Source: Formosa sp. Hel3_A1_48 (GTDB lineage Bacteria; Bacteroidota; Bacteroidia; Flavobacteriales; Flavobacteriaceae). Taken from it: a DNA stretch of 64,000 nucleotides. The notes beneath the pieces were generated by a model. That model was not told the DNA's origin and did no database searches. It saw only the letters and a program-made list of their open reading frames with translations. The position numbers and the translations under genes are program-made. The first letter of the stretch is position 1. Every line of letters starts with the position of its first letter. The stretch is taken from assembly GCF_001735715.1 (NCBI RefSeq), contig NZ_CP017259.1:1609501-1673500 (forward strand), written 5' to 3'. This document shows, in pieces, positions 37,308 to 46,617 of this stretch.

Positions 37308-37315
37308 TACTTTTG
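37308..37315 (+). promoter_or_regulatory. -7 box next to the guaA start codon
   Basis: TACTTTTG ends four bases before the ATG at 37319, so initiation would fall on or beside the start codon. No clear -33 TTG is seen 19-21 bases upstream. Confidence 0.4.
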
Positions 37316-37318
37316 GGC

Positions 37319-38854
37319 ATGCAACACGATAAGGTATTAATTCTCGATTTTGGATCTCAATATACACAACTCATTGCACGCCGTGTAAGAGAGTTGAACA
37401 TTTACTGTGAAATCCATCCCTACAACAAAATTCCAACCTCAATAGAGGCCTACAAAGCAGTCGTGCTTTCAGGCAGTCCACAGTCTGTACGTGGCGATGA
37501 TGCGCTACACCCCGATTTGTCGAAAATCCGTGCAAAAAAACCGCTTTTAGCGGTCTGCTATGGAGCACAGTATTTGGCTCATTTTTCAGGAGGTAATGTA
37601 GCACCATCAAATACACGTGAATATGGCCGTGCAAATTTATCTTTTGTTCATGACAACGATCCTTTTTTTATGGGCATATCTATAGGCAGTCAAGTTTGGA
37701 TGAGTCATAGTGATACCATCAAAACATTACCTACTAATGGTGTATTGTTGGCCAGCACTCATGATGTAGAGCATGCAGCTTATAAAATAGAGGGTGAAAC
37801 GACATACGCCATACAATTCCATCCAGAAGTATATCATTCTACCGATGGAAAGCAATTGCTGCAAAACTTTTTAGTGGATATAGCAGGTCTAGAACAAGAC
37901 TGGACACCTGATTCTTTTGTGGATGAGACTGTAGCTGATCTGAAAGTTAAATTACAAAAAGACAAAGTTGTTTTAGGGCTTTCTGGTGGTGTAGATTCAA
38001 CTGTTGCAGCTATTTTATTGAACAAAGCAATAGGAGATAATCTGTATTGTATTTTTGTTAATAATGGATTACTGCGCAAAAATGAGTTCAGTAGCGTTCT
38101 CAAACAATACGAAGGAATGGGGCTGAATGTTAAAGGGGTTGATGCCTCGGCTCGTTTTTTAGATGCTTTGGCAGGAGTAGATGATCCAGAACTGAAACGC
38201 AAAGCCATTGGTAGAGTATTTATTGAAGTTTTTGATGACGAGGCCCATTTGATCAAAGATGTTAAATGGTTGGCTCAAGGCACAATTTACCCAGATGTTA
38301 TTGAAAGTGTTTCAGCAACTGGGGGACCTAGTGCAACCATAAAAAGTCACCACAATGTCGGGGGCTTACCTGATTTCATGAAACTTAAAGTCGTAGAGCC
38401 GCTGAAAGCTTTATTTAAAGACGAGGTGCGTCGTGTTGGCGCTTCAATGGGAATAGATGCTCAATTGTTGGGACGTCATCCCTTTCCTGGACCTGGCTTA
38501 GCAATTCGGATTTTGGGCGATATTACCGCTGAAAAAGTCCGTATTTTGCAGGATGTTGATGCGATTTTCATCAATGGTTTACGCGAATGGGGGCTGTATG
38601 ATAAAGTTTGGCAAGCAGGCGCAATGTTATTGCCTGTAAACAGTGTTGGTGTGATGGGTGATGAGCGGACCTATGAAAAATGTGTTGCTTTGCGAGCCGT
38701 TGAAAGCACTGATGGGATGACTGCAGATTGGGTTAATTTACCTTATGAGTTTTTACAAAAAACTTCCAATGATATCATCAACAAAGTAAAAGGAGTTAAT
38801 AGAGTAGTATACGATATCAGCTCTAAGCCTCCAGCAACTATTGAATGGGAATAA
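37319..38854 (+). CDS. guaA: GMP synthase (glutamine-hydrolysing)
   Basis: Converts XMP to GMP with glutamine as ammonia donor. I use the ATG at 37319 ([20 protein letters not shown], 511 residues) and reject an in-frame TTG two codons earlier. The class I glutaminase domain has nucleophile C80 (LAVCYGAQ) and the His-Glu pair in QFHPEVYHS. The ATP-pyrophosphatase domain has [10 protein letters not shown], and the dimerisation domain contains the [16 protein letters not shown] motif; the protein ends [11 protein letters not shown] as expected. A LysM protein gene follows after 51 bases. Confidence 0.97.
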
Positions 38855-38905: not shown

Positions 38906-40867
38906 ATGAATAACATGAAAAGATTTTTTTTAAGTGCTGTTTTGTTTTTTTGTGTCGCATCATTGACAGCTCAAGTCTTGCGTACGCATACCATTGACGC
39001 CAAGGATACTTTAGAAACAATTGCTCAGCGTTATGGAGTTTTACCAGAAGATATTTCGGCACTCAACCCAGGCATTGACGATATTCTTTCTGTAGGAAAA
39101 ATCCTTGTCATTCCAAACCCAATTGAAAAAAAGACAAAAGAGACTAAAGAAATTCAAGAGTTGGTTTCTTATAAAGTCCACCGCGTTAAGCGCAAAGAAA
39201 CCCTCTATAGAATTGCAGAGAAATATAAGACCTCGGTTGAGGACATTAAAAAACATAATCAACGCCTCTACAGTTCACCTCTTCAATTTAAAGATAAAAT
39301 TTACATTCCCAAATACAAAACAAAAACTATCGCTGTAGTTCCAAAAGCAGTTCGTCGTTATACTGTTTTGCCGAAAGAGGGGAAGTGGCGTGTGGCTTAT
39401 AAATTTGGCATTTCAGTACAAGAATTAGAAGCCCTAAATCCTAATTTAAATTCTGTTCTACAAGCCGGACAAAAGCTTTATGTACCTAATATAGATGCCG
39501 ATCAAGAACAAGAAGTTTCAGATGATCGTTATGGATTTTATAAAGTTCTTCCTAAGGAAGGGTTTTACAGGCTATTTAAAAAATTAGGTGTTCGTCAAGA
39601 AGTTTTAGAGGAACTTAATCCTGTATTACTCGAGACGGGATTAAAAGTTGGAATGGTCTTGAAAGTGCCAAATTCTAATCTTGCATCTATCGATTTAGAG
39701 GCTAGAGAAGAAACGCGTTTGGCTGACCAATTGAAGTTTCTACGCCCAAAAAAAATAGCCTTGATTCTTCCCTTTAAGGCAAAGTCAATTGATTTTGACT
39801 CTACTCAACTGGCTAAGCAACAAATCCAGCGTGATGGATACATACGCATTTCAACCGAATTTTACGCAGGTGTAGAAATGGCTTTAGATTCTGCCAAACG
39901 TTTGGGTATTTCCACTGATTTAGATGTATTCGATTCAGAAGCAGACCTTCTAGCTACAAACTCCCTTTTGCGCAACAATGATTTCTCTCAATACGATTTT
40001 GTTTTAGGACCACTGACTGCTCTGAACAGCAACAGTATCGCTGAAGCCCTTCAGTCAAAGAATATTCCTGTTGTTTCTCCTTTTGTTAAATTTGAGAGGT
40101 GCACACCAAACCTTATTCAAACCATTCCCAATGATAATTGGATGGCAGATAAGTTATTACGCTATGCTGAAACCGACAGTATACCACACCAAACCCTTAT
40201 TATCTCAGATTCAAAATCTTTAGCTCGTGCTCAAAAGATTCGCACTTTTTTTCCTGACGCACTACTTCTGAACTCTCAACGAAATGAAGAAGGGCAGGAG
40301 CAATATTACATTCAATTTGAAATTGTAAAAAACGCTTTAGAGGCAGGCAGGACTGTAGTGTTTTTAGAAACAAATAATGAAGGTTTTGCATCTAATGTAA
40401 CAAGTATGCTTAACGGTTTGAATGGAGTGACTATGCAAAAAGACGAAACAGACGGAGACAAAGAGGAGGAAGAATATGAAATTGAACGCGAACTTATACT
40501 AATGACGACTAACCGCAACAAAGCTTTTATGGGAGCAAATATTTCAAATACAGATTTGTCTGGTCTGAATTTCCAATTTCCATCAGTTCAATTCTATAAT
40601 GAGGAGTTGTCGGGTTTTGAAAAAGTATACAATGCGCGTTTTGGCATCTATCCTACACGCTACGCCACCCGTGGTTTTGATCTAACTTTAGATTTGCTTT
40701 TGCGCTTAGCGGCTTATGATTCTATTTATGAACAATTGACGACTATTGAGACAAAATACTTAGAAAATAAGTTTAGGTATGTAGAATCCCAAAATGGGGG
40801 TTATGTGAATCAATCGGCTTATATTCTTAAATATGAGAATTTGCATGTCGTTAAAGTACAAGACTGA
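38906..40867 (+). CDS. LysM (x4) protein with periplasmic-binding-protein-like domain
   Basis: 653 residues. Signal peptide to about residue 22 (LFFCVASLTAQ). Four LysM modules can be seen at about 27-70 (THTIDAKDTLETIAQRYGV), 89-136 (YKVHRVKRKETLYRIAEKY), 152-195 (YTVLPKEGKWRVAYKFGIS) and 210-255 (GFYKVLPKEGFYRLFKKLG). From about 278 to the end it looks like a type I periplasmic-binding-protein fold (KIALILPFKAKS, EFYAGVEMALDSAKRLGI, FVLGPLTALNS, IPVVSPFVK). It likely binds peptidoglycan in the periplasm while the second domain binds a ligand or protein. The order resembles LpoA-like cell-wall-synthase regulators only in principle. No transport genes are nearby. Confidence 0.82.
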   Translation: MNNMKRFFLSAVLFFCVASLTAQVLRTHTIDAKDTLETIAQRYGVLPEDISALNPGIDDILSVGKILVIPNPIEKKTKETKEIQELVSYKVHRVKRKETLYRIAEKYKTSVEDIKKHNQRLYSSPLQFKDKIYIPKYKTKTIAVVPKAVRRYTVLPKEGKWRVAYKFGISVQELEALNPNLNSVLQAGQKLYVPNIDADQEQEVSDDRYGFYKVLPKEGFYRLFKKLGVRQEVLEELNPVLLETGLKVGMVLKVPNSNLASIDLEAREETRLADQLKFLRPKKIALILPFKAKSIDFDSTQLAKQQIQRDGYIRISTEFYAGVEMALDSAKRLGISTDLDVFDSEADLLATNSLLRNNDFSQYDFVLGPLTALNSNSIAEALQSKNIPVVSPFVKFERCTPNLIQTIPNDNWMADKLLRYAETDSIPHQTLIISDSKSLARAQKIRTFFPDALLLNSQRNEEGQEQYYIQFEIVKNALEAGRTVVFLETNNEGFASNVTSMLNGLNGVTMQKDETDGDKEEEEYEIERELILMTTNRNKAFMGANISNTDLSGLNFQFPSVQFYNEELSGFEKVYNARFGIYPTRYATRGFDLTLDLLLRLAAYDSIYEQLTTIETKYLENKFRYVESQNGGYVNQSAYILKYENLHVVKVQD

Positions 40868-41804: not shown

Positions 41805-44309
41805 TTAATATTCATCCCTAAAAAACAAAGCGTTTAGCAGCAATTTATTGGTACCGTACCAAAATGCTCTGAAGTTTGTGTTATCAGTAAACCCTACAAT
41901 TTTCCCTAGTCCATGCCGTACAACCTTAAACGGAACAGTGTTTTTTATTAGCTCTAAGTTTTCTTTAGAGCAATAGCCGCTCAAAAGTGGATTCTGTGTA
42001 TATTGAATGGGATTGTTGTAGCTGTTTTTATCAGCTTTTATAAAAATTGTCGTATTGCGGAATAATGCTAAATTGTCATTTTCGTAACCAAAATTAATGG
42101 GGTGCGAACGGTCTATTTTAGCTTCAAAGATCGCTCCTCCAAGACCTTGAGCTCCTTTAAATTTAGAACGGTTTTCAAAATTTATATCTTTAGCTTCTAA
42201 AGTTGTTGATATTAATTCCATTGGAAAAATATTATTTTTTTTCAACCACTTTAGCGCATTTTGATAAGCTATGAGTGTTCCGCCGTCTTCCACCCATTTT
42301 TTGAGCTTATTAGCAGCTTTGCTGTCTAGGCCATAAGTATTTGGTAGAATGATACAATTGTAACGGTTCAAACGGCTTTGATTTAGACGAGAAACATTAA
42401 GTTTCGTTGTTTGTATAGCGTAGCGGGTATCCATCAAGTGCCAAATCTCTCCGGCATCGTACGCATCTATGCCAGGTCCAACAATCAGTGCAATATTAGG
42501 TTTTGTCAATGTTCTAAAATTATTACTACCCAAATCTGGTCCACTTGTTACACCTGTGGGAAGGCCGTACACCACAAGATGACTTTCCTTTGCAGCCTTT
42601 TCTAATATCTTATGAATTTTTTCTGATGAATGGGCTTGATTTTGAACTGGAACAAGAATGCTGCCATAATCAAAACTTTTGGATCTGGAGCTAAATGGTT
42701 GCAACGCCATTTTCACCCGAACATTTTTTTGGAATAGTATATTTAGCGCTTTTGGACTGTAGTAATCACTCCAGGGCATGATGTAAGCATAGTCACTTTT
42801 TTGACTTACTTGCCCTTGGGGTAATTCAGGTAACATGCTTTGGTCTGCATACTTCATTTTTCCTTTGTCTGTGAAGTTAAGATCAAAAGCCAAAGGAAGG
42901 GTCCATGCTGAGATATCATAAAATAAGCTATCCCTAAAGGTCGTACGACGCTCAAACATGGCCTTGAGCAGACGGCTATTTTTTTGTTTTTTTGGCACTA
43001 GGTAAGCGCTGGCCTTTGGATATACTTTCCCACCTAACGAAATATCATTCTTTAAAGCCCTAATCTCGATTTGATGGCGCTCTAAAATTTCTGCTAAATG
43101 AAAAGCTTTTGCCGGGTCATTTGGTGCGCCAAAAATATATGCTTCTTGGTCTAATGCTTTTGCTTCTTTACGAGCATTGTTGAAAAAGTCATATTGATAT
43201 TGAAGTAATTTTTCACGCATGTTTAACGCTGCTTTTAGGGTGGATAGCCCAGCAGTTAATTGATTTTTAATGGTGAAAGGAAATGTGAGCAGACCATTGT
43301 CACTTTCCTGAATATGTCCGCGCGAGCTTGCTTGTTCAAATAATATACCGATACTGCCATTAATATCAGGAAAAGTGGATCCCTTACCGTAATAAAAATC
43401 GTCATAATTTTCCTCAGAATAATACAACGAACCAATATCATCGAATGCAGCTGCGTGGTACGTCCCAATTTCCTTTGTAAGCTGTTGGTTTAGTTCAGGC
43501 GTCAACGGGTGAGTTCTTGAGGGAATTCCAGGTTGGAAGAAAAAACTAGAATTAGTCCCCATCTCGTGATGATCGGTTAGAATATTTGGCATCCACCTAT
43601 GAAATGTATTGATACGTGCTCTTGATTCTGGGAGTTGTACCGGCAACCAATCTCGATTCATGTCAAACCAGTAATGGTTTGTACGACCGCCTGGCCAATC
43701 TTCATGGTATTCACGATCGTTAGGATCAGGATTCAAGTTAATGTTTTTGTTTGTGTTCGCCCAATGTGCAAAGCGTTGGAGTCCATCTGGGTTGAGTGCA
43801 GGGTCAAATAAAATGACAGTATTTTTTAATAATGTCTTTACTTCCAGAGACTCTGAGGCAGCCAAATGATAGGCAAGGAGCAGCGCAGCATTTGAGCCAC
43901 TGGCTTCATTACCATGAATGGAAAATCCTTGATAAACTACTACAGGTCTATCAGCAGTACCCATGAAGTCGTTTCCTTCTGTGGCTTGTACGTGTGCCGT
44001 TCTAATTTTTTCCAGCTTTTTGAGATTATTTGGATCACTAATGGTGAGTAAAATCAATGGCCTTCCTTCAAATGTCACCCCTCGGTTTTCTAATTTAATC
44101 CGATCGGATTCTGACGCTAGTGTTTGAAAGTACTGCAGTAGTTTATCGTGCGTGATGTGCCACTCTCCAACTTGATGGCCAATTACTGATTCAGGAGTTG
44201 AGATCTCAGAATTGTAATCAGTACTGTTTGGCAGATAGTAATCGAGCTGCGGAGCTTGCTGTGCACAAATAAAAAGAGGAATCCATAATAAGAATAGTTG
44301 TAATTTCAT
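41805..44309 (-). CDS. Secreted M14-family zinc carboxypeptidase
   Basis: 834 residues. Signal peptide (LFLLWIPLFICAQ), then an M14 domain with zinc ligands in GFSIHGNEASGSNAALLLAYHL (His and Glu), a later substrate-binding NMNRDWLPVQLPESRA, and NILTDHHEMGTNSSFFFQP supplying the distal His. The C-terminal half (about 400-834) is an extended accessory region with a glutamine-amidotransferase-like fold (NCIILPNTYGLD, KKWVEDGGTLIAYQ), as I recall for large Bacteroidota M14 proteins. Probable role: extracellular or periplasmic peptide degradation. A promoter is not clear; the terminator at 44333-44363 separates it from DUF3276. Confidence 0.87.
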   Translation of the reverse strand: MKLQLFLLWIPLFICAQQAPQLDYYLPNSTDYNSEISTPESVIGHQVGEWHITHDKLLQYFQTLASESDRIKLENRGVTFEGRPLILLTISDPNNLKKLEKIRTAHVQATEGNDFMGTADRPVVVYQGFSIHGNEASGSNAALLLAYHLAASESLEVKTLLKNTVILFDPALNPDGLQRFAHWANTNKNINLNPDPNDREYHEDWPGGRTNHYWFDMNRDWLPVQLPESRARINTFHRWMPNILTDHHEMGTNSSFFFQPGIPSRTHPLTPELNQQLTKEIGTYHAAAFDDIGSLYYSEENYDDFYYGKGSTFPDINGSIGILFEQASSRGHIQESDNGLLTFPFTIKNQLTAGLSTLKAALNMREKLLQYQYDFFNNARKEAKALDQEAYIFGAPNDPAKAFHLAEILERHQIEIRALKNDISLGGKVYPKASAYLVPKKQKNSRLLKAMFERRTTFRDSLFYDISAWTLPLAFDLNFTDKGKMKYADQSMLPELPQGQVSQKSDYAYIMPWSDYYSPKALNILFQKNVRVKMALQPFSSRSKSFDYGSILVPVQNQAHSSEKIHKILEKAAKESHLVVYGLPTGVTSGPDLGSNNFRTLTKPNIALIVGPGIDAYDAGEIWHLMDTRYAIQTTKLNVSRLNQSRLNRYNCIILPNTYGLDSKAANKLKKWVEDGGTLIAYQNALKWLKKNNIFPMELISTTLEAKDINFENRSKFKGAQGLGGAIFEAKIDRSHPINFGYENDNLALFRNTTIFIKADKNSYNNPIQYTQNPLLSGYCSKENLELIKNTVPFKVVRHGLGKIVGFTDNTNFRAFWYGTNKLLLNALFFRDEY

Positions 44310-44848: not shown

Positions 44849-46603
44849 TTAGCTCAAGGCGTCTTGAAGTTGCTGCTCATAAAGCGCTTTGTAGTACCCG
44901 TCTTGGCTAATAAGCTGATTATGTGAGCCTTCTTGTAAAATTTCACCTTCATCCAACACTATAATATGGTCAGCATTTTTGGCAGAAGATATTCGGTGGC
45001 TCACAATAATGGTAGTTCTATTTTTTGTAATTTTTTCAAGATTCTTCAAAATTTGCTCTTCTGTCTCGGTGTCAACTGCTGATAGGCAATCGTCCAAAAG
45101 TAAGATTTGAGGAGATTTGATAAACGCCCTGGCTATTGAGACTCTTTGCTTTTGTCCCCCTGAGAGTGTAATCCCTCGTTCTCCTAAAACAGTGTCATAT
45201 CCTTTGGAAAAATTTATAATATTTTCATGTACCACTGCATTTTTGGCTGCATCGATTACCTCTTGATTAGAAGCATTATTTTTTCCAAACTTGATGTTAT
45301 TATTTAGAGTGTCAGAGAATAAAAAAGGATCTTGGGGGACATAGCCGATGCTGCTGCGTAAGCTATGAAGATTAATGTCTTTAATAGGAATATCATCAAT
45401 CTTTATTTGCCCACTATTGGCGTTGTACATTCTTCCGATGAGTTCTAAGACAGTGGTTTTGCCGCAACCAGTTTTACCAATGATTGCCAGTGTTTTTCCT
45501 TGATCTACTGTAAAACTAATCCCTTTTAAAGCTGTTATGTTGGTGTCTTGATAGGTGAAGTAAACCTCCTGAAAAGATATTTTGCCCTTGATATCGTTTG
45601 TGTTTTTTTGTGTATTGTAAACACTAGGTATTTGTTTTAAAAACGCATTTATACGTTTTTGAGAGGCCTCGGCTTGTTGAACTAGGGAGGTAACCCATCC
45701 TACAGAAGCTACGGGCCAGGTGAGCATGTTGACATAAATAATGAATTCAGCGATTGTCCCCAATTCTTTTATTTCTCCATTTATATATTGTTGTCCACCA
45801 ATATAAATAACCAATAAATTACTTGTACCAATCAATAAAAGCATCAAAGGAAAAAAGAAAGCTTGAGTTTTTGTTAAATTCAGTTTTTTTTGGCGTTGAT
45901 CGTTCGAAAGCTCTGCAAAATTTTGTTCAGTTTCGGTTTCTAAGGCATATGCTTTAGTTACGGATATACCACTAAAAATTTCCTGTGTTGTTGAGGTTAG
46001 TACAGATAGTTGCTCTTGTACAATGGTGCTTCTAGTATGTATGTACTTGCTTAAAAAATAGATCGAAAAAGAAAGAATCGGTAAGGGTATGACGGTGTAA
46101 AGAGTGAGTGTAGGGGCTTTGCTGTACATGTATATTAGTGCCACTACAAATAATGTAATCATATTGATGGTATACATAAGAGCCGGCCCTACATACATTC
46201 TTACTTTGCCAACATCTTCCGAAATTCGATTTATTAGGTCACCAGTTCTGTTTTGTTTGTAAAAGGGAAGGCACAAGCGCTGATAGTGTTCGTAAATTTC
46301 GTTTTTCAAATCAAATTCAATGTACCGAGATACATTGATTAGGGTCTGTCGCATTAGAAAAGTAAATACACCTGTGGCTATTGCTGCGCCCAAAATAAAG
46401 AGAATTTTGAGGCCAATAGCTTTTTTAAAGACTTGTTCTTCTATTGGATTTGATAATTGATTGGCTACAAGAGTAATTACGTCCCCAATAAGACGAGGTG
46501 TAAATAATGAAAATATCTTTGCACAAGCCACAATAAGGATTCCAAGTACAACTCTGTACTTGTATTTGATAAAATATTTATTAAGGTATTGTAATTCTTT
46601 CAT
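44849..46603 (-). CDS. ABC exporter, fused permease and ATPase (MdlA/YheI-like)
   Basis: 584 residues from the ATG complementary to 46601-46603 (MKELQYLNKYFIKYKYRV). An upstream in-frame TTG is rejected because the -7 box sits on it. About six transmembrane helices precede an ATPase domain (from about 335) with GKTGCGKTT (Walker A), a Q-loop (IGYVPQDPFLFSD), LSGGQKQRVSIARAF, and Walker B LLLDDCLSAVD. D505 stands where the catalytic Glu normally follows Walker B, and the CLSAVD form is typical of degenerate subunits of heterodimeric exporters. No partner gene is adjacent. Substrate unknown (drug or lipid). Confidence 0.92.
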   Translation of the reverse strand: MKELQYLNKYFIKYKYRVVLGILIVACAKIFSLFTPRLIGDVITLVANQLSNPIEEQVFKKAIGLKILFILGAAIATGVFTFLMRQTLINVSRYIEFDLKNEIYEHYQRLCLPFYKQNRTGDLINRISEDVGKVRMYVGPALMYTINMITLFVVALIYMYSKAPTLTLYTVIPLPILSFSIYFLSKYIHTRSTIVQEQLSVLTSTTQEIFSGISVTKAYALETETEQNFAELSNDQRQKKLNLTKTQAFFFPLMLLLIGTSNLLVIYIGGQQYINGEIKELGTIAEFIIYVNMLTWPVASVGWVTSLVQQAEASQKRINAFLKQIPSVYNTQKNTNDIKGKISFQEVYFTYQDTNITALKGISFTVDQGKTLAIIGKTGCGKTTVLELIGRMYNANSGQIKIDDIPIKDINLHSLRSSIGYVPQDPFLFSDTLNNNIKFGKNNASNQEVIDAAKNAVVHENIINFSKGYDTVLGERGITLSGGQKQRVSIARAFIKSPQILLLDDCLSAVDTETEEQILKNLEKITKNRTTIIVSHRISSAKNADHIIVLDEGEILQEGSHNQLISQDGYYKALYEQQLQDALS

Positions 46604-46617
46604 AATGGAATACAACG

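Follow-up and report, generated by a model that had tools for sequence, protein, structure and literature searches.

LysM modules hold peptidoglycan, and in E. coli the LysM proteins NlpD and ActS activate amidases, with a degenerate LytM/M23 domain as their second domain. LivJ-type binding proteins are partnered by permeases of the family PF02653. The wall-synthesis regulators of E. coli are LpoA and LpoB, which are confined to gamma-proteobacteria in the available sections of PMC3060616. According to the same sections, LpoA (LppC, PF04348) is an outer-membrane activator of PBP1A in gamma-proteobacteria, the ODD region of this partner is likewise limited to that group, and in vivo each PBP needs its own Lpo protein (PMC3060616).

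A gene with another combination of domains was identified in a window of 64,000 nucleotides from Formosa sp. Hel3_A1_48 (contig NZ_CP017259.1, positions 1,609,501 to 1,673,500), and coordinates are those of this window unless the contig is named. The gene (38906..40867, +) encodes 653 amino acids plus stop, its ORF begins with ATG, and homologues match it along the full length. A second in-frame ATG at 38915 is an equally possible start, because relatives often begin at that position. Residues 1-23 (38906..38974, +) read by eye, from the sequence and the alignment, as a signal peptide of SPase I type ending in LTAQ, in line with the secretion claimed by the original prediction, and the protein would be exported to the periplasm.

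Four LysM modules had been predicted, and four could be recognised. Pfam LysM (PF01476, E 4.1e-31) placed three of them over the cut-off of 20.9 bits, at residues 27-71 (38984..39118, +; contig 1648487-1648615), 91-136 (39176..39313, +; contig 1648679-1648810) and 151-195 (39356..39490, +; contig 1648859-1648987), and all three were present in the AlphaFold model. The divergent fourth module, residues 211-256 (39536..39673, +), was absent from the Pfam matches over the cut-off; it showed the beta-alpha-alpha-beta order in the full-length model and, over residues 212-255, matched the solved LysM 5yz6 weakly in phmmer (E 0.0069). The NCBIfam matches were all below the cut-off (15 of 15) and inside residues 17-258. 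A linker follows at residues 257-269 (39674..39712, +), which includes a low-confidence model segment (mature residues 237-245, that is residues 260-268), and the full-length model (pLDDT 86.3, pTM 0.60) has low confidence at the link between the LysM part and the binding fold.

The C-terminal domain, residues 270-653 (39713..40864, +), clearly has a type I periplasmic-binding-protein fold in the AlphaFold model (mean pLDDT 93.8, pTM 0.88). LivJ and LpoA, the two folds with which a comparison had been proposed, both matched it, LpoA in Foldseek. Rank 1 in Foldseek was 4gnr, a LivJ (E 1.5e-13), and LpoA chains ranked 20th, 24th and 26th (E 3.0e-11 to 4.6e-11), the first of them being 5vbg (E 3.0e-11, TMq 0.57). 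In VIA, which gave a second look and was not a search, the best structural match was LivJ 2liv (Z 25.1, rmsd 4.0) with 318 of the 384 residues aligned, so the predicted fold is not one unrelated to type I binding proteins. The Z score of 1usg was 25.0, superopen LivJ 1z15 and apo 1usg were within the first three, sequence identity to LivJ/LBP was 10-14% in the best rows, and no LpoA was among the 50 rows of the list. Thus AlphaFold, Foldseek and VIA uphold the binding-protein-like domain of the original prediction.

Pfam Peripla_BP_6 gave 17.3 bits on the window protein, below its cut-off of 31.7. Among 77 aligned domain sequences (E<=0.1), ANF_receptor was found in 74 and Peripla_BP_6 in 71, and among 50 diverse members (E<=0.01) Pfam LysM was found in 41 and Peripla_BP_6 in 37.

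That no transporter is nearby held for importers, but an ABC protein of exporter type (ABC_membrane and ABC_tran by Pfam; 44849-46615, -) lies 4 kb downstream, closer than any other ABC protein that was detected. The PF02653 permease had no match in the Formosa genome (one contig, completeness 99.8), and it was matched in two of 24 sampled genomes bearing the protein and in none of the other 22, Formosa included; the control gave matches in 12 of 14 well-known genomes. The positions aligned to the LivJ anchors Ser79 and Thr102 are A372 and K395 in the window protein. Ser or Thr was found at these positions in 18/77 and 19/77 sequences, so they are variable, in a comparison of only two LivJ positions made by sequence alignment through 4gnr and not on model coordinates. 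Because PF02653 is missing in 22 of the 24 genomes and the two LivJ anchors are not conserved, a role as the binding protein of an importer is very unlikely; an intact pocket with a partner importer encoded elsewhere, which would have contradicted the original prediction, was not what was found. The sequences of the family point to envelope regulation rather than nutrient import.

The gene upstream is guaA, encoding GMP synthase (37313..38854, +; Pfam GATase and GMP_synt_C), and 51 bp separate its stop from the start of the LysM/binding-fold gene. Since this gap is short, gave no terminator-like site when scanned and belongs to a conserved adjacency, the two genes are perhaps co-transcribed. 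Promoter-like sites (9) were fewer than in shuffles (mean 13.4), and terminator-like sites (4) were about equal to shuffles (3.0, sd 1.8). Downstream of the LysM/binding-fold gene, a thioredoxin-like gene was observed on the opposite strand. The window also encodes an M14 zinc carboxypeptidase-like protein with a signal-like start (41805-44309, -), whose homologue adjoins bshC in many related loci.

The protein is not peculiar to the Formosa genome and belongs to a widespread Bacteroidia family. With the window protein as query, 60 of 60 genomes of the taxonomic family matched (weakest best E 1.7e-14), and with a relative as query, 386 of 398 genomes of one genus matched at E<=1e-50 (330 of 333 among the good genomes). 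The domain profile built from the 77 sequences matched 119 of 146 order genomes at E<=1e-5. A more diverse domain profile (A4) reached 258 of 296 genomes of the class Bacteroidia at E<=1e-5 and left 38 without match. The full-length profile (A1), which was too strict for the divergent domain, found 65 of 296 phylum genomes at E<=1e-20; A4 was used on the class, not on the phylum. In principle A4 might also pick up other type I binding proteins, the detailed scan having covered 50 diverse proteins, and at the inspected loci this is unlikely because of the guaA linkage.

This linkage is conserved, and the neighbourhood survey which had been proposed returned it, with PBP adjacency in one of 129 loci. 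In 78 of 80 loci of the taxonomic family, guaA preceded the gene on the same strand at a distance below 400 bp; of the two exceptions, L091 was cut by a contig end and L047 had a short ORF (465 aa) with guaA 599 bp upstream. Of the order and class loci picked by hand, 33 of 49 showed the same arrangement, and these came from about thirty families (50 loci were fetched, and L181 gave no ORF that matched). For the loci L218-L247 the count was 25 of 30. The other 16 of the 49 had no close guaA, including four endosymbiont-like loci in which the gene follows a sucB-like gene. Neighbourhood ORFs were started at the first ATG, and the frequent overlap with guaA is possibly an artefact of an ATG in the last codons of guaA ('MGI' starts). 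Downstream genes varied by lineage, with OsmC-like, pyrG and yidC in many Flavobacteriaceae loci and hemF in 12 class-level loci, as named by reading the sequences. In one class-level locus an MltG-like endolytic transglycosylase, also named by reading, then follows the gene (L241:8113-9180, +). Both the class-wide spread and the guaA linkage are new relative to the original prediction. The family is apparently little studied; among the titles and abstracts listed in searches of open-access literature there was no study of this LysM/binding-fold architecture and no paper assigning a function. An unnamed LysM protein was altered in the outer-membrane fraction of lolA1/lolB1 mutants, according to the accessible part of PMC11885536.

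The anchor of the family varies. LysM count ranged from 0 to 4 among 46 loci from 45 families, and a lipobox was present in 4 of 7 LysM-less members versus 1 of 39 with LysM (Fisher p 0.001, ignoring relatedness). Envelope tethering looks important, because 4 of these 7 members carry a lipobox instead of LysM. The tree gave three LysM-state changes, two of which the starred branches require, so the exchange of anchors goes back to two to three losses. Three of the seven LysM-less members (L242, L246 and the endosymbiont-like copy) were without lipobox, and several LysM-bearing relatives, L185 among them, start with lipobox-like signals.

Reduced genomes showed which part of the protein is kept. 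The endosymbiont-like set comprised at least 22 genomes of ~0.6 Mb from one genus of the same order, presumably Blattabacterium. Seven of 22 had an intact domain without LysM, two had copies with internal stops, and 13 were without match at E<=0.001; the intact copies carried neither LysM nor lipobox. The decayed copies L181 (G460) and L182 (G426), with several internal stops, occupied the same place as intact ones, a loss in progress. The constant part of the family is the binding fold, not the anchor, and the binding domain can outlive LysM, yet it is being lost in these genomes. With the gene absent or broken in 15 of the 22, and with no match in 38 of 296 class genomes, the protein is on these counts dispensable in places. 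PF00912 was kept in 22 of 22 though 15 had no intact binding-fold copy, which argues against a strict need of the class A PBP for the protein there. A search for M23 gave no match in any of the 22 genomes, seven of which keep the domain, and an M23 peptidase as universal partner is unlikely there; the Formosa genome has seven M23 matches, in six frames.

The preferred explanation, which we hold to be about equally likely to be right or wrong in a form broad enough to include a PBP1A-specific one, is a regulator or adaptor of the cell wall that is tethered to the envelope, takes no part in transport and has an LpoA-like layout. After export to the periplasm, the LysM modules would hold the protein on peptidoglycan, where it would present a type I binding-protein fold which no longer serves an importer. 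By analogy with LpoA or NlpD/ActS in E. coli, this fold would most likely act as an adaptor or allosteric regulator of a cell-wall or envelope machine; the regulatory role of the protein and a wall enzyme as its partner are what we infer. The reading draws on the LysM modules together with a high-confidence fold that has LpoA among its Foldseek matches, on the missing PF02653 and variable LivJ anchors, on conservation across the class along with guaA, and on the exchange of LysM for lipobox. It has to bear that guaA linkage points to no wall enzyme, that a fold match cannot tell an adaptor from a ligand sensor, that the anchor exchange comes down to a few LysM losses with exceptions in both directions, that the gene is missing or broken in many reduced and some other class genomes, and that the strict full-length profile covers only a minority of phylum genomes.

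A class A PBP is the most specific partner candidate. The Formosa genome has one PF00912 match, a PBP1A at L280:1047-3386, in which 191 residues lie between Transgly (ending at 245) and Transpeptidase (starting at 437); the same segment has 181 residues in the PBP1A of G361 and 184 in that of an endosymbiont-like genome (G373). A Pfam scan of these three proteins (G000, which is Formosa, G361 and G373) revealed Transgly and Transpeptidase only and no known docking domain. Residues 246-436 of the Formosa PBP1A, without Pfam match, are a possible docking region. In G361 (1.9-Mb genome; L187:4565-8172) the LysM/binding-fold gene begins 47 bp behind the sole PF00912 gene, a point for a wall-enzyme partner in general and for PBP1A in particular. 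Against this, when phmmer was run on the ORFs called at 129 loci (49 and 80) to find an adjacent PBP, G361 was the only case, and a conserved PBP neighbour was rejected. Co-occurrence with PF00912 was uninformative and lends no support, since 54 of 54 genomes matched, with and without the protein.

The most specific form of the preferred explanation is a Bacteroidia counterpart of LpoA, which would dock on the class A PBP1A, perhaps between transglycosylase and transpeptidase, and stimulate it. The LpoA matches in Foldseek, the single PF00912 match, the inter-domain segments of the three PBP1A, the gene pair of G361 and the members with lipobox are in its favour. The Pfam content of the three PBP1A, the single adjacency and the persistence of PF00912 in endosymbiont-like genomes, 13 of them without the protein and two with broken copies, count against it, and we regard it as unlikely. 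The window protein is in any case, by profile, not LpoA: the LppC (PF04348) profile matched none of 12 genomes at E<=0.001, where the E. coli control did match, and within the family it found 2 of 77 domain sequences (best E 0.039) and 2 of 50 proteins (best E 0.0026), so that LppC membership was ruled out. The signal of the window protein is also of SPase I type by eye and not an LpoA-like lipoprotein signal, some relatives having a lipobox. The original prediction of a function like that of LpoA-type activators therefore survives in part. The shared fold, the lipobox of some relatives and the one PBP-adjacent gene speak for it; the LppC result, the Pfam scan of three PBP1A in which no known docking domain was detected and the PBPs that persist without the protein do not, and LpoA-like working is possible.

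A second explanation is a wall-tethered sensor, in which the fold would still have a small ligand, such as a muropeptide or another metabolite of the envelope, and would signal to a membrane partner. The fold is closest to LivJ/LBP, with 1z15 and 1usg in the first three, and GABA-B receptors and AmiC, which are sensors, were also among the structural matches in Foldseek and VIA. Across the class, Asp343 was found in all 50 members and Asn635 in 49, with a gap in the remaining one, and the 77 near sequences keep both residues without exception; Pro392 was present in all 50 class-wide members but in only 56 of the 77 near sequences. The two LivJ anchor positions tested were not conserved, though, and the neighbours that were read included no conspicuous receptor-like gene, guaA alone recurring upstream in most loci. 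A sensor of this kind is judged fairly unlikely.

Less probable still, and in our view quite unlikely, is a passive tether or spacer which stabilises the envelope and has no regulatory output. The number of LysM modules varies while most members keep some anchor, which is in its favour; the constancy of the binding fold rather than the anchor, and the intact endosymbiont-like copies with neither LysM nor lipobox, are at odds with it. A mutant of Flavobacterium johnsoniae, whose deletion probably maps here, is viable but impaired in attachment and biofilm formation and would suit a tether (accessible part of PMC10936215). In that part, deletion of the LysM protein gene Fjoh_2379 left planktonic growth in pure culture unchanged, reduced initial attachment to sand, biofilm and zorbs, and gave a smaller population in a three-species community; no mechanism is assigned there, and the complementing fragment is 2,416 bp (PMC10936215).

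The genome G846 is very probably F. johnsoniae, and its SprA matched 6h3i over all 1636 residues submitted, being identical in the part of the alignment shown. The gene sprA, which is Fjoh_1653 in the accessible part of PMC10936215, was placed at 1.918 Mb in G846 by match. By extrapolation from sprA, tag 2379 is expected near 2.76 Mb. If the gene count of the species is used, it would be near 2.87 Mb. At 2.848-2.852 Mb of G846, guaA is followed by a tandem of a 634-aa LysM protein and the 698-aa LysM/binding-fold orthologue, the only LysM genes between 2.27 and 3.92 Mb among the matches listed. Fjoh_2379 is probably one of these two genes, because position and fragment size fit, and both fit either gene. 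If it is the orthologue, the protein would be non-essential there and would matter for the cell surface. In the Flavobacterium-type loci L268:7835-9736 (+) and L186:8601-10505 (-), a second LysM protein (634-635 aa) with a coiled middle by eye lies between guaA and the orthologue; for that of L268, Pfam gave four LysM and no other domain kind, and the C-terminus is SPOR-like by eye.

The weakest explanation, a substrate-binding protein of a branched-chain-amino-acid-type ABC importer encoded elsewhere, can draw on the LivJ-like fold in Foldseek and VIA and on the PF02653 permease of two protein-bearing genomes, and is largely refuted and extremely improbable with this permease missing from its own genome and most sampled ones, although the control found it, and with both anchor positions unconserved. 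A very small share of the probability is kept for explanations not foreseen.

Returning to the regulator or adaptor, its boldest version is speculative and rather unlikely as a whole. It would make the protein a class-wide regulator of peptidoglycan synthesis and an independent counterpart of LpoA, with the fold fixed on the wall by LysM, or on a membrane by a lipid where LysM was lost, and touching the inter-catalytic segment of PBP1A; it would be expressed with guaA, and its level would perhaps follow nucleotide supply and growth rate. The presence of the domain in most class genomes, beside guaA in about thirty families and as the fold only in some endosymbiont-like genomes, makes the protein a candidate, open to experiment, for a function in the envelope. 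Should it act as regulator of a wall enzyme, Bacteroidia would gain a clade-specific handle on wall growth.

Among known systems, LivJ/LBP (Peripla_BP_6, from branched-chain amino acid importers) is the closest in fold, as seen with 2liv and 1usg; it differs in the low sequence identity, the unconserved ligand anchors, the absence of PF02653 from the genome and the fusion to LysM found here. NlpD and ActS share a LysM anchor joined to a non-enzymatic periplasmic domain, whereas their second domain is a degenerate LytM/M23 in place of a binding-protein fold, and M23 was undetected in the 22 endosymbiont-like genomes, seven of them with the domain. LpoA resembles the family as an envelope protein that has no importer and yet shows a type I binding-protein fold, and some family members have the lipobox as well. 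It has its own N-terminal domain where LysM modules are found here, and the LppC result, the Pfam scan of PBP1A without a known docking domain and the persistence of class A PBPs without the protein set the two apart.
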